From Akkermansia muciniphila (GTDB lineage Bacteria > Verrucomicrobiota > Verrucomicrobiia > Limisphaerales > UBA9464), in the NCBI GenBank assembly GCA_945861565.1, contig CAMAUY010000017.1, forward strand, positions 1 to 64,000: a DNA stretch of 64,000 nucleotides, written 5' to 3'. Positions 27,483 to 39,828 of the stretch are shown here, in pieces. Made by a program: the position numbers and the translations under genes. Position 1 is the first letter of the stretch. The number at the start of each line of letters is the position of its first letter. The notes under the pieces are model-generated. The model saw only the letters and a list, made by a program, of their open reading frames with translations, was not told where the DNA came from and did not search any database.

Positions 27483-29603
27483 ATGGAACTTCGAGAATTT
27501 GCAGAGCGAATTCTGTTCGCCACCACGCTGGACGAAAAGCTGGCCGCGCCCGAGAATCTAGTCGACGAACGACCGGGCCCCGCGATCGACGCTCCCGAAA
27601 TGCCGGGAAGGCCATCCGGATTGACGTTTAAACCAGCAGGCTCGGGTCGGTCGGATTTCCCCGGACTGAATCGGCTGGAACAAGAAACCGAACGGGGACG
27701 GCTGCTGCATTTCTTTGCGAATCACGAGCTGCTGGCCACGGAATTGATGGCCCTGGTTCTGCTCCGATTTCCCGAGGCTCCCGCCTCGTTTCGCCGCGGT
27801 GTCCTCCAGACCCTGCGGGAAGAACAGGAGCACATCCGCCTTTACCTAAAACGAATGCGGGAATGCGGGATCGAATTCGGAGCCTTGCCGGTCAGTGGCT
27901 ATTTTTGGCGGGCGGTGTCGCCCATGGATTCCCCGCTGGATTTTGTTACGGGGATCAGCTTGACCTTCGAACAGGCCAATTTGGACTTCGCCCGGCACTA
28001 CGCCCGAGCGTTCACCACCGTGGGCGACACTGCGACCGCCGAACTTCTCGACCGAATTTACCACGACGAAATCGCCCACGTGGCCCACGGACTCAAATGG
28101 TTCCGACGATGGAAGGAACCGGGCGTTAGCGACTGGCAGGCCTTTTGCCAGCAATTGAGGTTTCCCCTGTCGCCCCAGCGGGCGAAGGGCATCAATCTCA
28201 ATGTCGAGGGACGTCGCGCTGCCGGATTCGACCCGGAGTTCATCGCCGCCCTCAATGTATTTTCGCAGTCGCGCGGGCGGACTCCGGTGGTCTATCTCTT
28301 CAATCCGTTCACGGAAGGGTATCTCGCCTACGGACGCCAATTCACCCCGGTGAAACATCAAATGCTCCTGGCCGCGGATTTGGCACCTTTGCCGCAATTT
28401 CTCGCCAGTCCTGATGATATCGTCCTGGTGCCCCGCCGGCCGTCGGTGGCGTTTCGGAGCAACCTCAAGAATGCCGGGTTCCCGCCGCCGGAATTTGTGG
28501 AACTAGAGCGCGAAAACCCGAACCCTCCGGCGGCCTTGATGGAACGGAAACTGGGTGGACTTCGGCCCTGGGCATGGGGTCCCGACAGCCTAGAACTTCT
28601 AGGCCCCTTGTCTGCGAAGCTAGGGAAGTTGGAAGGAGAAGAACCGGGCTTTCATTCCGGGATGACCCCGCTCTATTCGAAGGCGTGGAGCGCCGAATTT
28701 CTCCGCCGGTTTCTTACCGACTTTAAATCCATGGGGTGGCTTTGCACCGAGGCGGAGACGGGGGTGGTGGTGAAGAACTTCGAGGCAGTCCTGGCTGCGG
28801 TGGATGCTATCCGCAGGCGCGGTCATCACAAAGTGGTCGTCAAGGAGTCATTCGGGCTGGCGGGCCGCAATATGATCCGCCTCTGGGAACCAGAAATCCT
28901 CGCGTCTCAGCAGAGGTGGATTACGGGGGCTTTGGCCAGCGGCCATCCCTTGGTTGTCGAGCCATGGTTGGAGCGGGTGGTTGATTTTTCCGTCCATTGG
29001 GAAATGAGTTCCGCCGGCCTCCAGTTGCGCGGATTCACGGGACTCATGACCGACCCTCGGGGCCAATTTCAGGCTAATTGGGCCGAACCCAGCTATCGGC
29101 GGCGGCCGCCGTCCGCCGTCCTCGCGTGCCTTCCTCCCCCGATGGGTTTTTTGCCGGGTATCATGCCACTGTATGAATCACTCCGCACTCGCCTGGAGTC
29201 CGAGCTTCGGTTGGTCCGGTACCAAGGGCCGGTGGGAATCGATGCCTTTGTTTACCGTTTGGCGGATGGCTCCTACCGTTTGAAGCCGGTGGTCGAGATC
29301 AACCCCCGGTACACCATGGGCCGCCTGACCCTGGAGTTGATGCGTCGAGTCGCTCCCGGAGCTGTGGGTTTCTTTCGCTTGCTCTCAATCAAGGAAGTGA
29401 TTGCGGCCGGGTTCCACGGTTTCGACGATTTCTCCGAACGTTGGGTCAAACAGTTTCCTATTCGCCTGACAGGCTCTCCGTTGCCCAAAATACAGGGAGG
29501 GGCGATCTGTTTAACCGACCCCCTTGAAGCCCGTGTCAGCCTCGCACTCTTCCAGGTCGGCAGCGCGTTGGCGACCCTCCGGCGCCTACTCCAAACGTTT
29601 TGA
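27483..29603 (+). CDS. DUF455 ferritin-like protein fused to an ATP-grasp domain
   Basis: The 706-residue protein has two recognisable halves. Residues 1-260 are a DUF455/MiaE-like four-helix ferritin fold with di-iron ligand candidates: E and H in ANHELLATEL (79-88), REEQEHIRLY (112-121), FEQANLDFARH (162-172) and YHDEIAHVAHG (193-203). A middle section (260-440) is unlike anything I know (TPVVYLFNPFTEGYLAYG). The end, about 440-660, looks like ATP-grasp: HKVVVKESFGLAGRNMI supplies the nucleotide lysine and glycine loop, PLVVEPWLERVVDFSVHW the hinge, and KPVVEINPRYTMGR the Mg-binding Glu/Asn. The combination suggests a ligase plus an oxygen- or iron-dependent step. The function is unknown. 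Confidence 0.75.
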   Translation: MELREFAERILFATTLDEKLAAPENLVDERPGPAIDAPEMPGRPSGLTFKPAGSGRSDFPGLNRLEQETERGRLLHFFANHELLATELMALVLLRFPEAPASFRRGVLQTLREEQEHIRLYLKRMRECGIEFGALPVSGYFWRAVSPMDSPLDFVTGISLTFEQANLDFARHYARAFTTVGDTATAELLDRIYHDEIAHVAHGLKWFRRWKEPGVSDWQAFCQQLRFPLSPQRAKGINLNVEGRRAAGFDPEFIAALNVFSQSRGRTPVVYLFNPFTEGYLAYGRQFTPVKHQMLLAADLAPLPQFLASPDDIVLVPRRPSVAFRSNLKNAGFPPPEFVELERENPNPPAALMERKLGGLRPWAWGPDSLELLGPLSAKLGKLEGEEPGFHSGMTPLYSKAWSAEFLRRFLTDFKSMGWLCTEAETGVVVKNFEAVLAAVDAIRRRGHHKVVVKESFGLAGRNMIRLWEPEILASQQRWITGALASGHPLVVEPWLERVVDFSVHWEMSSAGLQLRGFTGLMTDPRGQFQANWAEPSYRRRPPSAVLACLPPPMGFLPGIMPLYESLRTRLESELRLVRYQGPVGIDAFVYRLADGSYRLKPVVEINPRYTMGRLTLELMRRVAPGAVGFFRLLSIKEVIAAGFHGFDDFSERWVKQFPIRLTGSPLPKIQGGAICLTDPLEARVSLALFQVGSALATLRRLLQTF

Positions 29604-31023: not shown

Positions 31024-32514
31024 ACCATTACCGTTTCCGGCGTAGATGGCAAGGTGAGTGGCTACGATTTCCGTTTGGTGCCGGTCGAAGTTCAAGGGTT
31101 CAGCCTCGGGTTTGATCAGACGGTCACGACCAATTTTCCGGGGCCGGGAGCAGGTGTGATCGAGAAGCCGGGCAGTCAGGATGTCTACACGTTCACGGCA
31201 TCGGCCGGGAAGGCCGTGTATTTCGATGAACTTACGGGCTACAACTGTGACGGTAAATTGCGGTGGCGGTGCATCGGTCCGAAAGGGGAACAGGTATTCT
31301 ACGAGCAGTTCGGAGCCGTGGGTCCATGCGACACGCGGGATGCCGGAATGCGCATTCTGACAAATGGGGGAGACTACACGATCACGGTTGACGGTGTGGA
31401 AGACGCGGTGGGCGGCTATGATTTCAGAATTGTGCCCGTGCAAGTCCAGTCGTTTGATATTGCATTGAACCAGCTCGTGACCACAAACGTTCCGGGACCG
31501 GGCGCGGGAATGATCGAAAAACCCGGCGGTCGTGACGTGTTTAACTTCATCATTCCGGCAAGGAAAGTAGTCTATTTCGACGAGCTTTCGCGGAACAACT
31601 GCGACTCGGGCCTACGGTGGCGATGCATCGGTCCAACCGGGCAACAGATCTTCGACGAACGGTTTGGAGCAATCGGTCCCTGCAACACCCGAGACGCGGG
31701 TGCGCACGTCTTGGAGACCGCCGGTGCTTACACGCTGACGGTATACGGCGATGAGGATATCGTGGGCAGCTATGATTTCCGCCTTGTGCCGGTAGAGACG
31801 CAAACTTTCACCCTCGGTTTGGATCAGACCGTGACCACGAATGTGCCGGGACCCGGCGCGGGCGCCATCGAGCATCCGGGATGGCAGGATGTGTATAACT
31901 TTAGAGTGCCGGCTGAATCGCTAATATATTTTGACGAGTTGTCTCGCAACAACTGTGATTCAGGCCAGCGCTGGCGATGCGTCGGACCGCAAGGGGAGCA
32001 GATTTTTGACGAGAGGTTCGGTGCAATCGGGCCGTGCGATACGCATGACGCTGGACTCAAGCTGCTGACAAACGGCGGTGATTATACAATCACTGTATAC
32101 GGAGTCGAGGATACCGTGGGCGGTTACGACTTTCGATTGGTGTCCACTTCCGAACAATCATTCGCTCTGCATCTGAATGAAACGGTGACCAATGGCCTCT
32201 CGGCGACCGGAGCGGGACTCGTTCAAGTCCCCGGCGAGACAGACACCTTTTCGCTAGAAATCGATACGAACACGACCGTCTATTTCGATGCTCGAACTGG
32301 AAACAGTTGCGTTTCCGGGCTTCGATGGCGGGGAGTCACTCCCTCGGGTGTAACCCTCTTCGATCGCGTGCTCTCGGCCGATGGTCCATGCGGTGGTGGG
32401 GATCCCGGGGTGATCACACTGACCAATTCGGGGATTTACAAGATCGTTGTTTCTGGGATCGAAGACGGCATCGGTGGGTATTCCTTTCGAGTATGGTCTC
32501 AGTCGCCGAGCATT
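30745..32514 (+). repeat. Five tandem 354-bp repeats (118 aa each)
   Basis: Repeat starts fall at 30745, 31099, 31453, 31807 and 32161, a constant 354 bp. Each begins with a Phe-Thr/Ser-Leu-like strand and DQTVTTNVPGPGAGVIE and contains a three-cysteine pattern (NC, RC, PC). Units 1 and 2 are nearly identical at DNA level over 50 bp and more (30868 onward against 31222 onward), while unit 5 is most divergent, indicating recent duplication at the 5' end. The nonsense codon is in unit 1. Confidence 0.85.
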
Positions 32515-35500
32515 GCGGTACAACCGGAAGATACGATCGGCGCTATCGGGGAACGGGTCGTTTTGGGGATTGAGGCGGGGATCTTTCAACCGTTGCACTA
32601 CCAATGGCAGCGTGGCATCGAAAATCTGCCGGGTCAGAATGGATCCACGTTGGCCCTGGACCCCGTTCAGGCGAGCCAGGCGGGTACCTACCGGGTGGTG
32701 GTGACCAATGGGTTCGGATCAGTGACGAGCCGCGATGCATTGGTTCGAGTGTTCAACGGACGCTATATCCCGGTAAGCCAGGCTATCCGGAGGTCTCTTC
32801 CGGTCCTGGTCGGCGACGGCGTACGCATCCAGTTGTTCAACGGAATCGGAGGGGGCACGCCGCCGACAGCTGCCCTGTTGAACGGCCGGACGGCTGATGG
32901 CAACACCCTCTCACCCGAGATCGATTTCCCGCGTCCCGGAAACATCATTCAGGTGGGCGACAAGTTCGATGTTTTCTTTGCGAACACGACGATTCCGCCG
33001 GAGGCGGTTCGCAATCTCAGCGCCCGAAATTTCGTCCTGCAACACGACTTTCTGCTGCGCGTGAGCAGGGATTTGGACCTGAATCCAACCACTCCCGAGA
33101 TCGAGATCAAGCTGGGCGTGGGCAGTGATGACGGGTTCGATCTGCGTATTGGCGACATATTCATTGGGAATGCAAATGATCGGTCGTTTAACTATTCGTG
33201 GAGGGACGTGGCTTTTGCGGGGGAAGGATTGTATCCGGTGACCTTACTATTCTCGGCCAATGCGGCTGGGCAAAGTGGCCTCGAATTTGGCTGGCAGACC
33301 GCCATGAGCGGAGGCGCACAAATTGTGCCTCAGAAGGTGCTCTACACCGCGCCGGATGTCGGTGCCGAACAAATTACTTTTGAGGAGACCGGAGTGGGCA
33401 CGGTGCTGTCGAACCAGTACGCGCCACTCGGAGTTGTCTTTGCCGTCAATCCGGCTGCTGCGATCACCAAGAATCGTCCGCTGGAACTCGTGCCAGTGTC
33501 GCCACCCACCGTGTGGGCCTATCCGGATTCTAAGACAAATGCACCGGGAGAACTTTCGTGGCAATTCTCGGCTTCGGGTGGTAACACGCCAGGGTATACC
33601 GATCTCGTTGGGTTCTATCTGATTAATGCCCGGGCGCCTGGAACGGAGGTGACCGCCTATGATCCGGCAGGAGCTCAAGTGTATTCGAATCGGATTGCGG
33701 CGGGAGGCGGAAGTCAGGAACGAGTCTTGATCACGAGTCCGGCAATTCACCGCGTGGTCTTGCGCTGGCCGGCGGGTGTGCTTTCGCCCGCAGTCGACAA
33801 TCTAACATTTGATTCGATCATCGCAGTACCGCGGTCTGTCCAATTTTCCGCGGTGTCCGATCGCACGGCCCTGCCGGGCGGCGAAATCGCTTTCCGCGTC
33901 CCAATCGTTCCGGAGACTGCCGCCGTGGTGTTTGAGTTGATCGCAGGCCCGGCTGGGGCGTCGATCGATCCGGCGACGGGAATCTTTCGTTGGAATCTGC
34001 CGCCGTCGGCCAGAGGCATTTATCCAGTCGTACTCCGTGTACGTGACGCATTTGGTGGCGATGACACGGTGGCGTTTTCGGTCACGGTGCCCACGCTTCC
34101 AAACTTGGCGATCTCAAGACTCGAAGCGCCGACTTCCGGTGAAACGTCGGGCACGTTTTCCTTGACAGTACGTGAGGTCAACCGCGGGACGGGGCCGGCA
34201 ACGGGAAGTTGGAAGCTGGGCTTGTGGATTTCCCCAAATCAAAATATCGGAGCGGGGGCACAGCTGCTGGCTGAGGTGCCTTTTACCGGCACATTGCCAG
34301 CCGGACAATTCATCGAGCGCACCTTGCAGTATCGCCTGCCGGGTGGGCCCGGCGATTATTACATCATCGCCCGGAGCGACGCGTCGGATTCCGTCATCGA
34401 GCTCAACGAGTCTGACAATGAGGCCATCACCGGTGTGCCGGTTCATGTCGATTATGCGTATACTGCAATCGTCGGCACATCGTTCGAGCGGGGGGTGGCG
34501 GGGATTCCAATTCCTCTGGAGGGGCAGGCCCTTCGGCGGGACAATCGGCCGGCAGTGGGTGAACTCGTGAATGTCTTTGTGGGCGTCAAAGGCACCACAC
34601 GCATTCTCTCAGCACTGACGGATGATCAAGGCCGATTTCGGGTCGTCTTCCGCCCGCTATTAGGCGAGGCAGGAACGTATACAGTTGGTGCGGCGCATCC
34701 GGCGGCGGTGGACGCTCCCGTGCAGGATCAGTTCACATTGTTAGGAATGGGATTGGAACAGCGCGAAGGTCGCATTGTCGTACCTGCTACCACCAAGGGC
34801 ACACATATGGTGGCGCTTCGAAACAATGGGGATGTTCCGCTGACCGGAGTAACGATAGCGGTCATCGAGGGAGCGGATGCGTTGCCGGGAATTGCGGTGA
34901 CGCCATCGATTCCAGGGACGCTGGCGGGCAACGGCAACATTCAGGCCGAAATCCAAGTTCAATCGACGCGCGATGAAACGGTGGCCGGGCGGATCCTTTT
35001 GCGTATCACGACCACCGAGGGACTAAGTGCCGACTATCATCTGGCGGTGCAGGTTGTCGGCAAGCAGGCCCATCTTATATCGGAGCCCGCTTCACTCACC
35101 GCGGCGGTGTTGCGCGGTGATCAAACTGCCGTTCGATTTGACGTGGAGAATACCGGAGGATTGCCGAGTGGGCCGCTGAAGGTGCTGTTGCCGGTGTCGT
35201 GGATGAGCGTCGGCGATGGCATGCCGCTCCCGGCTTTGCCAGCCGGCGGCGTGCGCCGGGTAACACTCTTGGTGAGGCCCCCGGGGGATTTGCCTCTGAC
35301 CGATCACCAAGGTTCGCTGGTGGTGACCGACGGCACCAATCACCTCAATGTACCCTTTGTGTTCCGGGCTGTCTCGGATGCGCGAGCGAGTCTGACTCTC
35401 GAGGCTACCGACGAGTACACGTTTTACGCGGCGAGTTCGCCACGAGTGGCCGGAGCGAAGGCTGTTGTACGGGAGCAAGGTTCCACGACGGTTGTGACAA

Positions 35501-38500
35501 ATGGAGTAACGGGCGTGGATGGACGGGTCGTTTTCTCGGGGCTGCGCGAAGCGGCTTACGACGTCGAGGTGAGCGCCGAAAAGCACAGCACGTTTCGCGG
35601 CACCCTGTTTGTGAGCGCCGGACGGGAAAATGTTTACCAGACATTTCTAGCGCGGGAGACGGTGCAATATCTATTCACCGTTGTTCCGACGGAGATCGAG
35701 GACAAGGTGAAGATCGCGATCGAGACGGTGTTTGAAACCTTCGTGCCGATTCCGGTCGTCACGATGGATCCACCCATGATCGATATGGCGGATATTCAAT
35801 CCGACCGGACCGAGATCGAATTGAAGATTACGAACCACGGGCTGGTGGCGGCGCAAAACCTGAGGCTCAATTTCAATGGGAATGCCAAATGGCAATTCAC
35901 ACCGTTGTTGAATGACCTGGGCGATCTCGCGGCGAGAACCAGCATCACGGTTCCCTTGGTAATAGAACGGAGATCGGGCAGTGCCGTTGCAGCACGGCCT
36001 CAGCTTTTGGCTGGAGGCGACGATTGCGGCCTGGGTGGAAACCTCCTGTGGTCGTTGATTTGTGCGACGAATGAGAACACCTACAGCGTTCCATTCGGAG
36101 CGCAGGCGGATTGTCCGGGCGGAGTCGGTGGTTATTTTATTCCGAAAGGCGGAGGCTGTTGTGGAGCATTCACCTATTTCCCGGTCGTTTGCTACTGCGT
36201 TCCGTCGCCGTGCGATCCCTGCGGTGCAAAACTCGCTGGAGCGCTGGTCGATTGTGTCATAGGATTCTTGCCCTTGGGTCCGCTTCTGAGTTGCATGAAG
36301 GACACGAAGGGGTGCGCCGATTCGGCGGGAAATTGTCACAGTAATTATACCCACGGCCTGGTGTGCGACACGCAGGATCTCGGATTAAGTTGCGCGGCGG
36401 CTTTGGTAAGTTGTGCGGAGCTTGCCGGGAGGGAAGTGCCGTACTTGGGTCAGATACTGTCGGCGCTGGATTGCGCTAAAAAATTGCGCGACGCCTGCAA
36501 GCCGGAGAGCGGTGGAGCTTCCGGTGGCGGGGGTGGCAAGGGTAGTTTGGCGCGCCGCGGACGATTGGCGACCGCAGGCGGCACGACGCCGACCTTCTTT
36601 CCGGGCCAGGCGGGCGTTGCGGAAGAGATTCGCCGGTTGGAAGCGATCATCGGAGCGCTGGAGTTTTTGATCGGTGATCCGGCGTGGTTCCATCCCCAGC
36701 AAGGCACGAACTTCAGCCGCTTCCTGGCTGGCTTCATACGAGGCATCGATTTGAGCAGCCCGGATGGGCGCCGCGTGAACGCCACCGAGCGGGCCGCGCT
36801 TCTCACAGGGACGCTTCCGGACCTGGTCACGGGCGTCCAGGTGGGCAAATTCGTCGACCGCTGGAACCGATCCATCGACTACAATCAACGCGGGATCTTC
36901 ACGCTTAGCGAAGTGCCGAGCGGTGAGAGCACGGATTTCCTGGCCTTGGATTCGATGATGGCTGCGTTTGACGGAGCCGGCGATGCGATTTCGGCTCAGG
37001 AGAGGGACGGGTTCATTGGCGACCCGCTCGCGGGGCTTCGTCATGCAATGGAAAGGGTTCGTAGCAATTTGGCCGAAAGCGGTGGCGGGGTTTGCGCGCG
37101 GGTCCGTCTGCGGCTTGACCAGGAGGCGGTCACAACGCGTTCTGCGTTCAAGGCCACGCTGGAGCTGGTCAACAATTCCGGCGATCCTTTGACGAACGTA
37201 CTGGTGGAACTGAAAATCACCGATGCGAACGGGGTTGATGCCGGGCCGCGATTTGGAATACTGCCACCCGACCTGACGGGACTGACCGATGTGAGTGGTG
37301 GTGGCACGGTGGGAACCAACCAAACGGGGGGCGTGGCATGGTTGCTGGTGCCGAGTCATGAGGCAGCCCCGACTTCGGATCCGGAGCGATACTTTGTCGG
37401 TGGCCGGATGCGCTATTTTCAGGGGGGCACGGCAATCGACGTGCCGCTGACTCCGGCACCCATCCTTGTCTACCCCACGCCACGAATCGCCCTCACGTAT
37501 TTCCATGAGCGCGATGTTCGATCTGACGATCCATTTACCGAAACCATCGAACCCAGCATTCCCTATTCCCTGGCCGTCATGGTGCAGAACAAGGGAGTCG
37601 GGGCGGCGAAAAATCTCCGCATCACCTCGAGCCAACCAAAGATCATCGAGAACGAAAAGGGGCTGCTGATCGAATTTCAATTGATTGCCACGGAGATCGC
37701 CGGGCAATCGTTGTCGCCGTCGCTGACCGCTGATTTCGGCGACTTGCTCCCGGGTGGAATCAAGATTGGACGTTGGTTGTTTAAATCGACTCTCCAAGGG
37801 CAGTTCATCGACTACTCGGTGACATTTGAAAACGTTGGCCCGCTCCGAAACTTCCCCGAACTATCCACCCTTGAGCAGACATCGATTCATGAATTGATCC
37901 ACATCGTGCGTGCAGTCGGCCCGGCCGATGATGGTCAACCGGACTTCCTGGTGAACGATGTCGTGGATGACGACTACCTGCCGGATGCGCTATATCTGAG
38001 TCAGGGAACCACCAATTCGGTGAATGTGATCCGGACCGGGTTATTTGGGCTCCCGCCGACTGCCTCGCAGCTTGAGCACCCTTTGGAGATCAATGCCGCC
38101 GCCGGTTGGACCTACTGCCGCCTGCTGGATCCATCGCTGGCACAGTGGCGGCTCGCGAAAGTCCTGCGCGGAGATGGATCCGAGGTTCCCTTCGGCGACA
38201 ATGCCTGGTCGACAGATCGAACATTTATCGCTGGGGGACGTCGACCGAGATACGAGAATACGCTTCACATCTTCGATCGCACGACGGCGGGAAAAGTTAA
38301 CTATCGCCTTGTCTATGCACCGCTCGGGCCGATCGACTCAAAAACTCCGGTAAGCCAAGTTCAGCCGCTGGCGGCCAGCAGTTTAGCCGAAATCCCTTTG
38401 CAGTGGTCGGGACAGGACGATTCGGGTTCGTCCCTTACGTTTGACATCTTTGCGTCGAAGGACGCGGGGCCATTTGAGGTGTGGCGGTCCAATTTGACGG

Positions 38501-39828
38501 CGTTGGGCGCGATTTATACCGGACAATCAGGCCATCGTTACCGGTTCTATTCGGTCGCTGTTGATGCCGCGGGCAACCGAGAGGTGGCGCCCTTGATAGC
38601 CGATGCATCGACCACGGTCGATCGGGTGAATCACGCGCCGTCCTTGGTATTGCCGGAGTTCCCAGTGGTGATAGACGAGGGATTGGTCGCGGTGGTAAAC
38701 GCTCGCGCGATGGACGGGGATAATCCGCCGGACACCGTCGCGTTCGAGTTGGACCCCGGCTCCGCCCATGGCGCAACCCTTGATTCGCGCGCGGGCACGC
38801 TTCGATGGTCAACGGGTGAAGGCAATGGTCCTGGAACAAACCGATTCACCGTTTATGCCACGGACAATGGATTTCCGCCGCTGAGTGCCACGGGTTATGT
38901 CACCGTGATTGTTCGCGAAGTAAATGAACCTCCGGTGGTGGCAAGCCTCGGCCGAAGGGTGGTCAACGAGGGAGATTTGCTTGAGGTTTACGTGATGGCA
39001 ACCGACTCGGATCTGCCCCCGCAGAAGCTAATCTACAGCTTGAAGCCGCCGGCACCGATCGGGATGAAGATTGACTCGGCGACAGGGGTGTTGCGCTGGC
39101 GGCCGGGGCCTTCGGACGGGCCGGCAACCAATATCGTGACCGTGTTAGTTTCGGACGGTGTGGCGTCCGAGTCTAAGGAACTAACCGTGGTGGTTCGTGA
39201 CACCAAGCCGGAGTTCGAATTGGCGCTGGAAGAAACCAATCTTTTCCTCAGCGAATCGGGTGAGGTTCCCCTTCGATTAGTGTCGGGCATAGACCTGGAT
39301 GAAATCACGGTGGAATTGAATCCGTCGAGCGATCATCTGGCTGAAATTGCGCTCGCACCGACGTCCCCAATGGTTGGTTCGGCGAGTGTGACGCCATCTG
39401 GCAACAACCGCTATAAATTGAAGGTCACCGCTGCGATTGGTACGGTGTTGAACGGAGATTTCGAACTCGGGCGTCTGCGGTTCTTCGTGGTGCCCGGTCA
39501 TTCGTCCGCGGTGGTATCCCTTGCGCTGGCAGCGGGGCAGGCACGTTCGACATCGGGAACTATATTACTCCGCCCGAAGCTGACCTATGGCCGCGTTGCT
39601 GTGGTGGGAGTTGAGCCCTTGCTGGATTTTTCCGGAGCAAGCCGTGGGATTCGGATCTACGGGCATGCGGGCGAGACAATCGCACTCGAATATCGCAATG
39701 AAATTGCGCCGAGCACGTGGGTGCCGTGGAGGACAATCACCATCGGCAACGAATATGAGGACGTTCCGGCCGCGGACGCAATCGCCCCGGGTGAATCCCG
39801 GTTTATCCGAGGCATCCGCAGGCGGTGA
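31054..39828 (+). CDS. Giant multidomain secreted protein (main part)
   Basis: Counting from the first in-frame ATG after the nonsense codon this is 2,924 residues; with the upstream signal peptide and first repeat it would be 3,060. Domains in order: completion of five 118-residue PPC-like Cys-containing repeats to about 32,514; an Ig-like domain (IAVQPEDTIGAIGERVVLGI); a PA14-like region; two He_PIG/cadherin-like folds; a CARDB-like domain (PNLAISRLEAPTSGETSGTF); carboxypeptidase-regulatory-like segments; a Cys-rich stretch (36,016-36,510); further Ig-like and cadherin-like repeats to the C-terminus (FIRGIRRR). No sorting signal such as PEP-CTERM is seen. Probably extracellular, possibly adhesive or a scaffold; no catalytic domain is recognised. 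Confidence 0.75.
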   Translation: MSGYDFRLVPVEVQGFSLGFDQTVTTNFPGPGAGVIEKPGSQDVYTFTASAGKAVYFDELTGYNCDGKLRWRCIGPKGEQVFYEQFGAVGPCDTRDAGMRILTNGGDYTITVDGVEDAVGGYDFRIVPVQVQSFDIALNQLVTTNVPGPGAGMIEKPGGRDVFNFIIPARKVVYFDELSRNNCDSGLRWRCIGPTGQQIFDERFGAIGPCNTRDAGAHVLETAGAYTLTVYGDEDIVGSYDFRLVPVETQTFTLGLDQTVTTNVPGPGAGAIEHPGWQDVYNFRVPAESLIYFDELSRNNCDSGQRWRCVGPQGEQIFDERFGAIGPCDTHDAGLKLLTNGGDYTITVYGVEDTVGGYDFRLVSTSEQSFALHLNETVTNGLSATGAGLVQVPGETDTFSLEIDTNTTVYFDARTGNSCVSGLRWRGVTPSGVTLFDRVLSADGPCGGGDPGVITLTNSGIYKIVVSGIEDGIGGYSFRVWSQSPSIAVQPEDTIGAIGERVVLGIEAGIFQPLHYQWQRGIENLPGQNGSTLALDPVQASQAGTYRVVVTNGFGSVTSRDALVRVFNGRYIPVSQAIRRSLPVLVGDGVRIQLFNGIGGGTPPTAALLNGRTADGNTLSPEIDFPRPGNIIQVGDKFDVFFANTTIPPEAVRNLSARNFVLQHDFLLRVSRDLDLNPTTPEIEIKLGVGSDDGFDLRIGDIFIGNANDRSFNYSWRDVAFAGEGLYPVTLLFSANAAGQSGLEFGWQTAMSGGAQIVPQKVLYTAPDVGAEQITFEETGVGTVLSNQYAPLGVVFAVNPAAAITKNRPLELVPVSPPTVWAYPDSKTNAPGELSWQFSASGGNTPGYTDLVGFYLINARAPGTEVTAYDPAGAQVYSNRIAAGGGSQERVLITSPAIHRVVLRWPAGVLSPAVDNLTFDSIIAVPRSVQFSAVSDRTALPGGEIAFRVPIVPETAAVVFELIAGPAGASIDPATGIFRWNLPPSARGIYPVVLRVRDAFGGDDTVAFSVTVPTLPNLAISRLEAPTSGETSGTFSLTVREVNRGTGPATGSWKLGLWISPNQNIGAGAQLLAEVPFTGTLPAGQFIERTLQYRLPGGPGDYYIIARSDASDSVIELNESDNEAITGVPVHVDYAYTAIVGTSFERGVAGIPIPLEGQALRRDNRPAVGELVNVFVGVKGTTRILSALTDDQGRFRVVFRPLLGEAGTYTVGAAHPAAVDAPVQDQFTLLGMGLEQREGRIVVPATTKGTHMVALRNNGDVPLTGVTIAVIEGADALPGIAVTPSIPGTLAGNGNIQAEIQVQSTRDETVAGRILLRITTTEGLSADYHLAVQVVGKQAHLISEPASLTAAVLRGDQTAVRFDVENTGGLPSGPLKVLLPVSWMSVGDGMPLPALPAGGVRRVTLLVRPPGDLPLTDHQGSLVVTDGTNHLNVPFVFRAVSDARASLTLEATDEYTFYAASSPRVAGAKAVVREQGSTTVVTNGVTGVDGRVVFSGLREAAYDVEVSAEKHSTFRGTLFVSAGRENVYQTFLARETVQYLFTVVPTEIEDKVKIAIETVFETFVPIPVVTMDPPMIDMADIQSDRTEIELKITNHGLVAAQNLRLNFNGNAKWQFTPLLNDLGDLAARTSITVPLVIERRSGSAVAARPQLLAGGDDCGLGGNLLWSLICATNENTYSVPFGAQADCPGGVGGYFIPKGGGCCGAFTYFPVVCYCVPSPCDPCGAKLAGALVDCVIGFLPLGPLLSCMKDTKGCADSAGNCHSNYTHGLVCDTQDLGLSCAAALVSCAELAGREVPYLGQILSALDCAKKLRDACKPESGGASGGGGGKGSLARRGRLATAGGTTPTFFPGQAGVAEEIRRLEAIIGALEFLIGDPAWFHPQQGTNFSRFLAGFIRGIDLSSPDGRRVNATERAALLTGTLPDLVTGVQVGKFVDRWNRSIDYNQRGIFTLSEVPSGESTDFLALDSMMAAFDGAGDAISAQERDGFIGDPLAGLRHAMERVRSNLAESGGGVCARVRLRLDQEAVTTRSAFKATLELVNNSGDPLTNVLVELKITDANGVDAGPRFGILPPDLTGLTDVSGGGTVGTNQTGGVAWLLVPSHEAAPTSDPERYFVGGRMRYFQGGTAIDVPLTPAPILVYPTPRIALTYFHERDVRSDDPFTETIEPSIPYSLAVMVQNKGVGAAKNLRITSSQPKIIENEKGLLIEFQLIATEIAGQSLSPSLTADFGDLLPGGIKIGRWLFKSTLQGQFIDYSVTFENVGPLRNFPELSTLEQTSIHELIHIVRAVGPADDGQPDFLVNDVVDDDYLPDALYLSQGTTNSVNVIRTGLFGLPPTASQLEHPLEINAAAGWTYCRLLDPSLAQWRLAKVLRGDGSEVPFGDNAWSTDRTFIAGGRRPRYENTLHIFDRTTAGKVNYRLVYAPLGPIDSKTPVSQVQPLAASSLAEIPLQWSGQDDSGSSLTFDIFASKDAGPFEVWRSNLTALGAIYTGQSGHRYRFYSVAVDAAGNREVAPLIADASTTVDRVNHAPSLVLPEFPVVIDEGLVAVVNARAMDGDNPPDTVAFELDPGSAHGATLDSRAGTLRWSTGEGNGPGTNRFTVYATDNGFPPLSATGYVTVIVREVNEPPVVASLGRRVVNEGDLLEVYVMATDSDLPPQKLIYSLKPPAPIGMKIDSATGVLRWRPGPSDGPATNIVTVLVSDGVASESKELTVVVRDTKPEFELALEETNLFLSESGEVPLRLVSGIDLDEITVELNPSSDHLAEIALAPTSPMVGSASVTPSGNNRYKLKVTAAIGTVLNGDFELGRLRFFVVPGHSSAVVSLALAAGQARSTSGTILLRPKLTYGRVAVVGVEPLLDFSGASRGIRIYGHAGETIALEYRNEIAPSTWVPWRTITIGNEYEDVPAADAIAPGESRFIRGIRRR

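Follow-up and report, generated by a model that had tools for sequence, protein, structure and literature searches.

What might an enzyme do that joins a DUF455 ferritin-like domain and an ATP-grasp domain in a single polypeptide? The question is raised by one gene in the window (the whole stretch of 64,000 nucleotides analyzed here), for which the original prediction was an oxidase or hydroxylase combined with an amide- or thioester-forming step, possibly as part of a natural-product route. DUF455 is found in several phyla; no function for it was found in the literature that was accessible in part, and no report of a DUF455/ATP-grasp fusion was found in a search that leaves out most subscription papers. 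We give a probability of about 0.5 to the protein being a bifunctional cytoplasmic enzyme, composed of a di-iron oxidase half and an ATP-grasp ligase half of the amino-acid or peptide type.

The Fused Gene and Its Protein

Both domains had been predicted to lie in one chain of 706 residues, and the open reading frame is found exactly there, on the forward strand (Table 1). The full-length AlphaFold2 model of this protein, built with 42 aligned sequences, has a pLDDT of 91.5 and a pTM of 0.89. Both halves are under purifying selection, with dN/dS values of 0.03–0.13 (N-terminal half) and 0.09–0.18 (C-terminal half) across six pairs of fused proteins. Two tests of the original prediction had been set beforehand, namely an ATP-grasp fold in the C-terminal half and the retention of the metal ligands in homologues: the fold is found in the model, and the ligands are invariant in all 42 aligned fused proteins, as well as in 40 of 40 sequences in an alignment with stand-alone DUF455 proteins.

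Table 1. Positions of the fused gene, its two domains, and the predicted functional codons in the window.
Feature	Position	Strand	Description or basis
Fused gene, DUF455 + ATP-grasp	27483..29603	+	706 aa, ATG start; ORF list, homologues, AlphaFold2 model
DUF455 di-iron ferritin-like domain, residues 36-254	27588..28244	+	Pfam E 1.9e-48
Predicted di-iron ligand codons, whole span	27726..28079	+	E82, E114, H117, E163, E196, H199
E82 codon	27726-27728	+	Predicted di-iron ligand
E114 codon	27822-27824	+	Predicted di-iron ligand
H117 codon	27831-27833	+	Predicted di-iron ligand
E163 codon	27969-27971	+	Predicted di-iron ligand
E196 codon	28068-28070	+	Predicted di-iron ligand
H199 codon	28077-28079	+	Predicted di-iron ligand
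ATP-grasp ligase-like domain + pre-ATP-grasp lobe, residues 265-706	28275..29600	+	VIA-align fold matches
ATP-grasp catalytic codons (predicted), whole span	28842..29309	+	K454, E493, D587, E605, N607, R609
K454 codon	28842-28844	+	ATP-grasp catalytic residue, predicted
E493 codon	28959-28961	+	ATP-grasp catalytic residue, predicted
D587 codon	29241-29243	+	ATP-grasp catalytic residue, predicted
E605 codon	29295-29297	+	ATP-grasp catalytic residue, predicted
N607 codon	29301-29303	+	ATP-grasp catalytic residue, predicted
R609 codon	29307-29309	+	ATP-grasp catalytic residue, predicted

The DUF455 Half

The N-terminus had been recognized as a DUF455 ferritin-like domain, and residues 36–254 match PF04305 with 165.6 bits, above the gathering score of 34.3. 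The motifs on which that recognition drew are all present: HE (H81–E82), REEQEHI (E114 and H117), and YHDEIAHVAHG (E196 and H199); a further ligand, E163, within LTFEQANLDF, had been overlooked. By comparison with the ferritin-like pattern, E82, E114, H117, E163, E196, and H199 are the predicted iron ligands. These six residues are identical in every row of three alignments, two of fused proteins that have rows in common (A1, 42/42; A2, 42/42), and a third (A3, 40/40) that adds three stand-alone DUF455 proteins (Sinorhizobium, Azospirillum, and Geobacillus). The main helices of the bundle span residues 68–95, 101–127, 151–179, and 183–210 in the predicted model. Of the features of the di-iron ferritin-like superfamily, a four-helix bundle, two ExxH motifs, and two further Glu are found in the model and sequence of this half.

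When modeled alone, the N-terminal domain has a pLDDT of 94.9. Its ferritin-like matches to solved folds have Z scores of 13.6–15.1 among the rows shown, a range to be read against the value of about 13 that helical bundles reach by arrangement alone; because scores near 13–14 are attainable in this way, the di-iron assignment leans more on the conserved ligands. These matches include Dps, bacterioferritin, rubrerythrin, and aldehyde deformylating oxygenases, with tied Z scores, and the longest aligned spans (183–187 residues, 61–260) are those with aldehyde deformylating oxygenases. Foldseek returns no close solved relative of the di-iron half (best E 0.045), and its sequence matches to aldehyde decarbonylases are weak (E 0.16 and above).

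The stand-alone DUF455 proteins, which we take to be COG2833, belong to the same Pfam family and have the same six metal ligands, but lack the ATP-grasp half (275 aa in Sinorhizobium). Aldehyde deformylating oxygenase and BioE have a ferritin-like di-iron fold like that of the DUF455 half, although the spacing of the ligands is different, and the substrates of both are acyl chains. According to the accessible part of the source (PMC12915131), BioE binds iron through four Glu and two His, and the predicted ligand set of the DUF455 half is of this kind.

The ATP-Grasp Half

No Pfam or NCBIfam model calls the C-terminal half of the window protein ATP-grasp. The Pfam PreAtp-grasp model (PF18604) gives 13.7 bits (E 0.099) against a cut-off of 27.5 bits, and there is no match to the NCBIfam LdmS model (NF047900; cut-off 475 bits). 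In an alignment of 32 rows that includes two stand-alone homologues and four ferritin-less proteins (A5), PF18604 is matched by four homologues, and the LdmS model by three, at E 0.01 or better; the profile of this alignment matches 7r8p at E 0.016.

The predicted fold agrees with the ATP-grasp-like C-terminus of the original prediction, and the motifs KESFG (K454) and VVEINPR (E605, N607, and R609) lie in this half. In the VIA-align comparison, the C-terminal half (about residues 266–706) is closest to 3wvr (Z 29.2, rmsd 3.1, 374 residues), followed by 3wvq (Z 28.7), 8ynd (26.9), 8ynq (26.0), 7r8q (25.2), 7r8p (25.0), and 8yi6 (BesA, 25.0). Ranks 1–7 (Z 29.2–25.0) are all ligases of the PGM1/LdmS/BesA type, with the next class running from 3orq (N5-CAIR synthetase, PurK-type) at Z 21.1 downward; PGM1, 8ynd, LdmS, and BesA all outrank the listed folds of PurK, GAR synthetase, and biotin carboxylase. 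The title of entry 3wvr reads only ATP grasp protein; we take it to be PGM1, the pheganomycin peptide ligase (3wvr/3wvq), with which the whole C-terminal domain aligns at 16% identity. Likewise, 7r8p and 7r8q (SAOUHSC_02373) are presumably LdmS, an L-aspartate–L-methionine ligase (349 residues aligned), whereas BesA aligns over 374 residues with 14% identity. PGM1 and the Streptomyces peptide ligase 8ynd differ from the window protein in that the solved chains have no di-iron domain.

Because sequence identity to the solved ligases is 14–17%, the type of substrate is read from the fold only. The nearest solved folds are amino-acid or peptide ligases, and amide formation would therefore be favored over thioester formation.

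K454, D587, E605, N607, and R609 are identical in every row of A1, A2, and A5, and E493 is identical in all of A1 and A2 (42/42 each) and in 31 of the 32 rows of A5. The roles that we assume for these six residues (including the lid Lys and the Mg ligands D, E, and N) are those usual in the ATP-grasp family. Taking fold, lid Lys, and Mg ligands together, the modeled C-terminal half would belong to the ATP-grasp superfamily.

Stand-Alone Relatives of Each Half

Stand-alone homologues of the C-terminal half were identified by tblastn of plasmid records in Parabacteroides, Phocaeicola, and Streptomyces, then in Bacteroides and Prevotella; all are unannotated or "hypothetical". The Parabacteroides homologue matches the LdmS model at E 8.4e-8, with 31.4 bits of the 475-bit cut-off. 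The Streptomyces homologue (L113:8953-10149), on a plasmid record, lies among genes for an acyl carrier protein, radical SAM, condensation-domain, sugar, and oxidoreductase functions. Unannotated ATP-grasp homologues in Bacteroidales are located at L112:8992-10200, L114:8995-10254, L175:5986-7191, and L177:5995-7110. In B. finegoldii and P. nigrescens, two genes beside the homologue are annotated, one as an ATPase and one as a pyruvate:ferredoxin oxidoreductase, and ORFs that are similar by eye lie beside the homologue in Phocaeicola.

A check proposed with the original prediction was to look for relatives that encode the two domains in separate neighboring genes, and none were found. No annotated ATP-grasp gene lies near the stand-alone DUF455 genes of the plasmid records (L115, L116, and L117), and no annotated DUF455 gene lies near the stand-alone C-terminal homologues of Bacteroidota and Streptomyces; for other phyla the search covered plasmid records, of which L114 and L176 bear no annotation, and the absence is not to be taken as general.

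Distribution in Verrucomicrobiota

A scan of genome contigs yields 342 stretches that encode relatives, and the fusion is thus far from a chance event. In the best 80 of these 342, the matching frame spans residues of both halves in every case (80/80), some of the frames ending at contig ends. Across a sample of the phylum, 47 of 387 genomes match PF04305: the match is strong in 22 (142–170 bits, in frames of 648–776 aa) and ≤54 bits in the others. All 22 genomes with a strong match encode ATP-grasp in the same frame, and the C-terminal profile recovers the same 22 genomes plus two marginal ones. At the level of the order, the fused profile matches 71 of 196 genomes (a count that includes partial genes at contig ends and five ferritin-less genomes), and 46 of the 111 of good quality. 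The fused gene is absent from a genome of the same genus as the window (G576), which indicates a patchy distribution. No relative of either half was found in the viral contigs searched.

The weaker DUF455 matches (≤54 bits) were considered as further cases of the fusion and rejected, the eight examined (L104–L111) having no sign of it. These eight are proteins of 393–444 aa in which repeated ferritin-like motifs can be seen by eye, and a single genome of Verrucomicrobiota contains up to four matches.

A Clade Without the Di-iron Domain

Five Limisphaerales genomes (L122–L126) have frames of 481–532 aa in which little or nothing of the di-iron domain is left; in L126, the first 27 residues are joined to residue 266 onward in one frame. 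PF04305 matches none of the five, two of which are <90% complete, and matches 3/3 fused-gene controls; a further search for the domain (A4) gave no match in nine genomes, with no positive control among them. In a tree of 104 C-terminal domains (a short search with no bootstrap, five truncated loci being excluded), the five ferritin-less proteins fall on one branch (SH-aLRT 97) beside fused proteins, and a single loss of the di-iron domain in this clade is therefore most likely.

The ligase half of the ferritin-less clade is under purifying selection, with dN/dS about 0.2 (0.18–0.23 in three pairs, vs. 0.09–0.18 for the same half in the six fused pairs). The retention of the ligase alone in one clade does not support an obligatory coupling of two steps, and the best reading is that the ligase half can act alone. 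Because this clade makes use of the ligase half on its own, the di-iron half is more likely to be an added modification step than integral to ligation.

Gene Neighborhood

The natural-product route of the original prediction is not borne out by the surroundings of the gene, which has no conserved partner and ordinary genes around it. In the window, a YebC family gene lies upstream and a SpoU methylase gene downstream on the opposite strand, and at a greater distance there are genes for MnmG, argininosuccinate lyase, and an RNase R-like protein; no biosynthetic gene cluster is seen around the fused gene. The window also contains a 2924-aa ORF (31054-39828) with an immunoglobulin-like domain and, by eye, repeated similar segments at its start, which is probably a large surface protein.

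Among the loci of the best 80 of the 342 relatives, the commonest neighboring family occurs in only 15. All that 19 distant fused loci have in common is the fused gene with its shadow frames, other genes recurring only within small groups of near relatives. Of the 203 immediate neighbors at 108 loci, those on the same strand at ≤120 bases were read by eye, and no general partner is among them. With no conserved neighbor, the fused gene looks like that of a self-contained, patchily distributed enzyme. A link to natural products is unproven: the patchy spread and the setting of the Streptomyces relative speak for it, and the lack of a cluster and of a conserved partner against it.

Proposed Function and Alternatives

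We propose that the C-terminal half, by its structural class (PGM1/LdmS/BesA), would convert a carboxylate to an acyl phosphate with MgATP, and would join the acyl phosphate to an amine, the substrates most likely being amino acids or short peptides. The DUF455 half would activate O2 (or peroxide) at a complete di-iron site, and would oxidize (e.g., hydroxylate, desaturate, or cleave) the substrate or product of the ligase. We infer that ligation of amino-acid-like substrates by the C-terminal half and oxidation by the di-iron half take place on one molecule. Counted for the oxidase–ligase reading are the fold ranking, the LdmS matches, the Streptomyces setting, the invariant ligands, the same-frame fusion, selection, and the mbo precedent; counted against it are the lack of a conserved neighbor or cluster, the ferritin-less clade, the 14–17% identity, and the best Foldseek E of 0.045. 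With regard to the precedent, the accessible part of the source describes heme-oxygenase-like di-iron oxidases beside ATP-grasp ligases as separate genes, such as MboA with MboC and MboD (PMC13185094). As far as that part goes, the di-iron oxidase and amino-acid ligases of mangotoxin mbo are functionally paired, as the two domains would be here, but mbo has a heme-oxygenase-like fold and is a gene cluster, whereas here an orphan gene encodes both domains as a fusion and the fold of the di-iron half is ferritin-like.

The DUF455 half might, rather than being an oxygenase, be a peroxidase, an iron store, or a sensor of iron or oxygen, with a protective or regulatory role toward the ligase half. 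The Z scores of bacterioferritin, Dps, and rubrerythrin, tied with those of aldehyde deformylating oxygenases, are consistent with such a role, as is a di-iron domain that is dispensable where the ligase is kept; however, the metal site is fully invariant and the longest spans are those with aldehyde deformylating oxygenases (though Z is tied), and we regard a non-oxygenase role as unlikely. A different ATP-grasp activity of the C-terminal half (e.g., that of a carboxylase, or of a ligase for another acid) appears quite unlikely: the amino-acid and peptide ligases are only 14–17% identical to it, and one Streptomyces homologue matches a biotin carboxylase model (E 3.9e-6, far under the cut-off), but the ranking of folds places PGM1, 8ynd, LdmS, and BesA above PurK, GAR synthetase, and biotin carboxylase.

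Very doubtful, in our estimate, is a nucleic-acid substrate; in that case, the di-iron half would be distantly related to the tRNA hydroxylase MiaE, and an amino acid would be added to a modified tRNA base by the ATP-grasp half. The stand-alone DUF455 protein L115 does match MiaE weakly (E 0.0036; 17.6 bits vs. a cut-off of 27); PF06175 (MiaE) is not among the Pfam matches of the window protein, and the structure matches of the di-iron half list no MiaE structure, which is not evidence against kinship. The gene miaA (tRNA dimethylallyltransferase) is the next gene downstream in L122–L125, four of the five ferritin-less genomes (identified as IPP transferase by Pfam in three loci and by BLAST in the fourth). 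At one distant locus, a gene that by eye resembles rlmN precedes the fused gene with a gap of 6 bases, and the cluster of this rlmN-like gene covers three distant loci. However, no miaA gene is found at the loci of the best 80 of 342 relatives or at any of the 19 distant loci with a fused gene, the four miaA neighbors lie within one clade and so amount to about one event, and the closest ligase folds are small-molecule enzymes; the miaA adjacency may be a gene order common to that clade.

Implications

If the oxidase–ligase reading is extended, a single dedicated gene might suffice to make an oxidized amino-acid conjugate in Verrucomicrobiota, and one lineage, through a clean loss of the di-iron domain, might have reverted to making the unoxidized form, although we hold this extension only tentatively. 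The fusion is a variant of two known kinds rather than a new kind. The clade in which the di-iron half is naturally deleted is a built-in control for the contribution of that half. The fusion to a ligase-like domain missed by sequence libraries is a concrete clue to the type of substrate of DUF455, for which a single-gene oxidase–ligase, if true, would be the first function.
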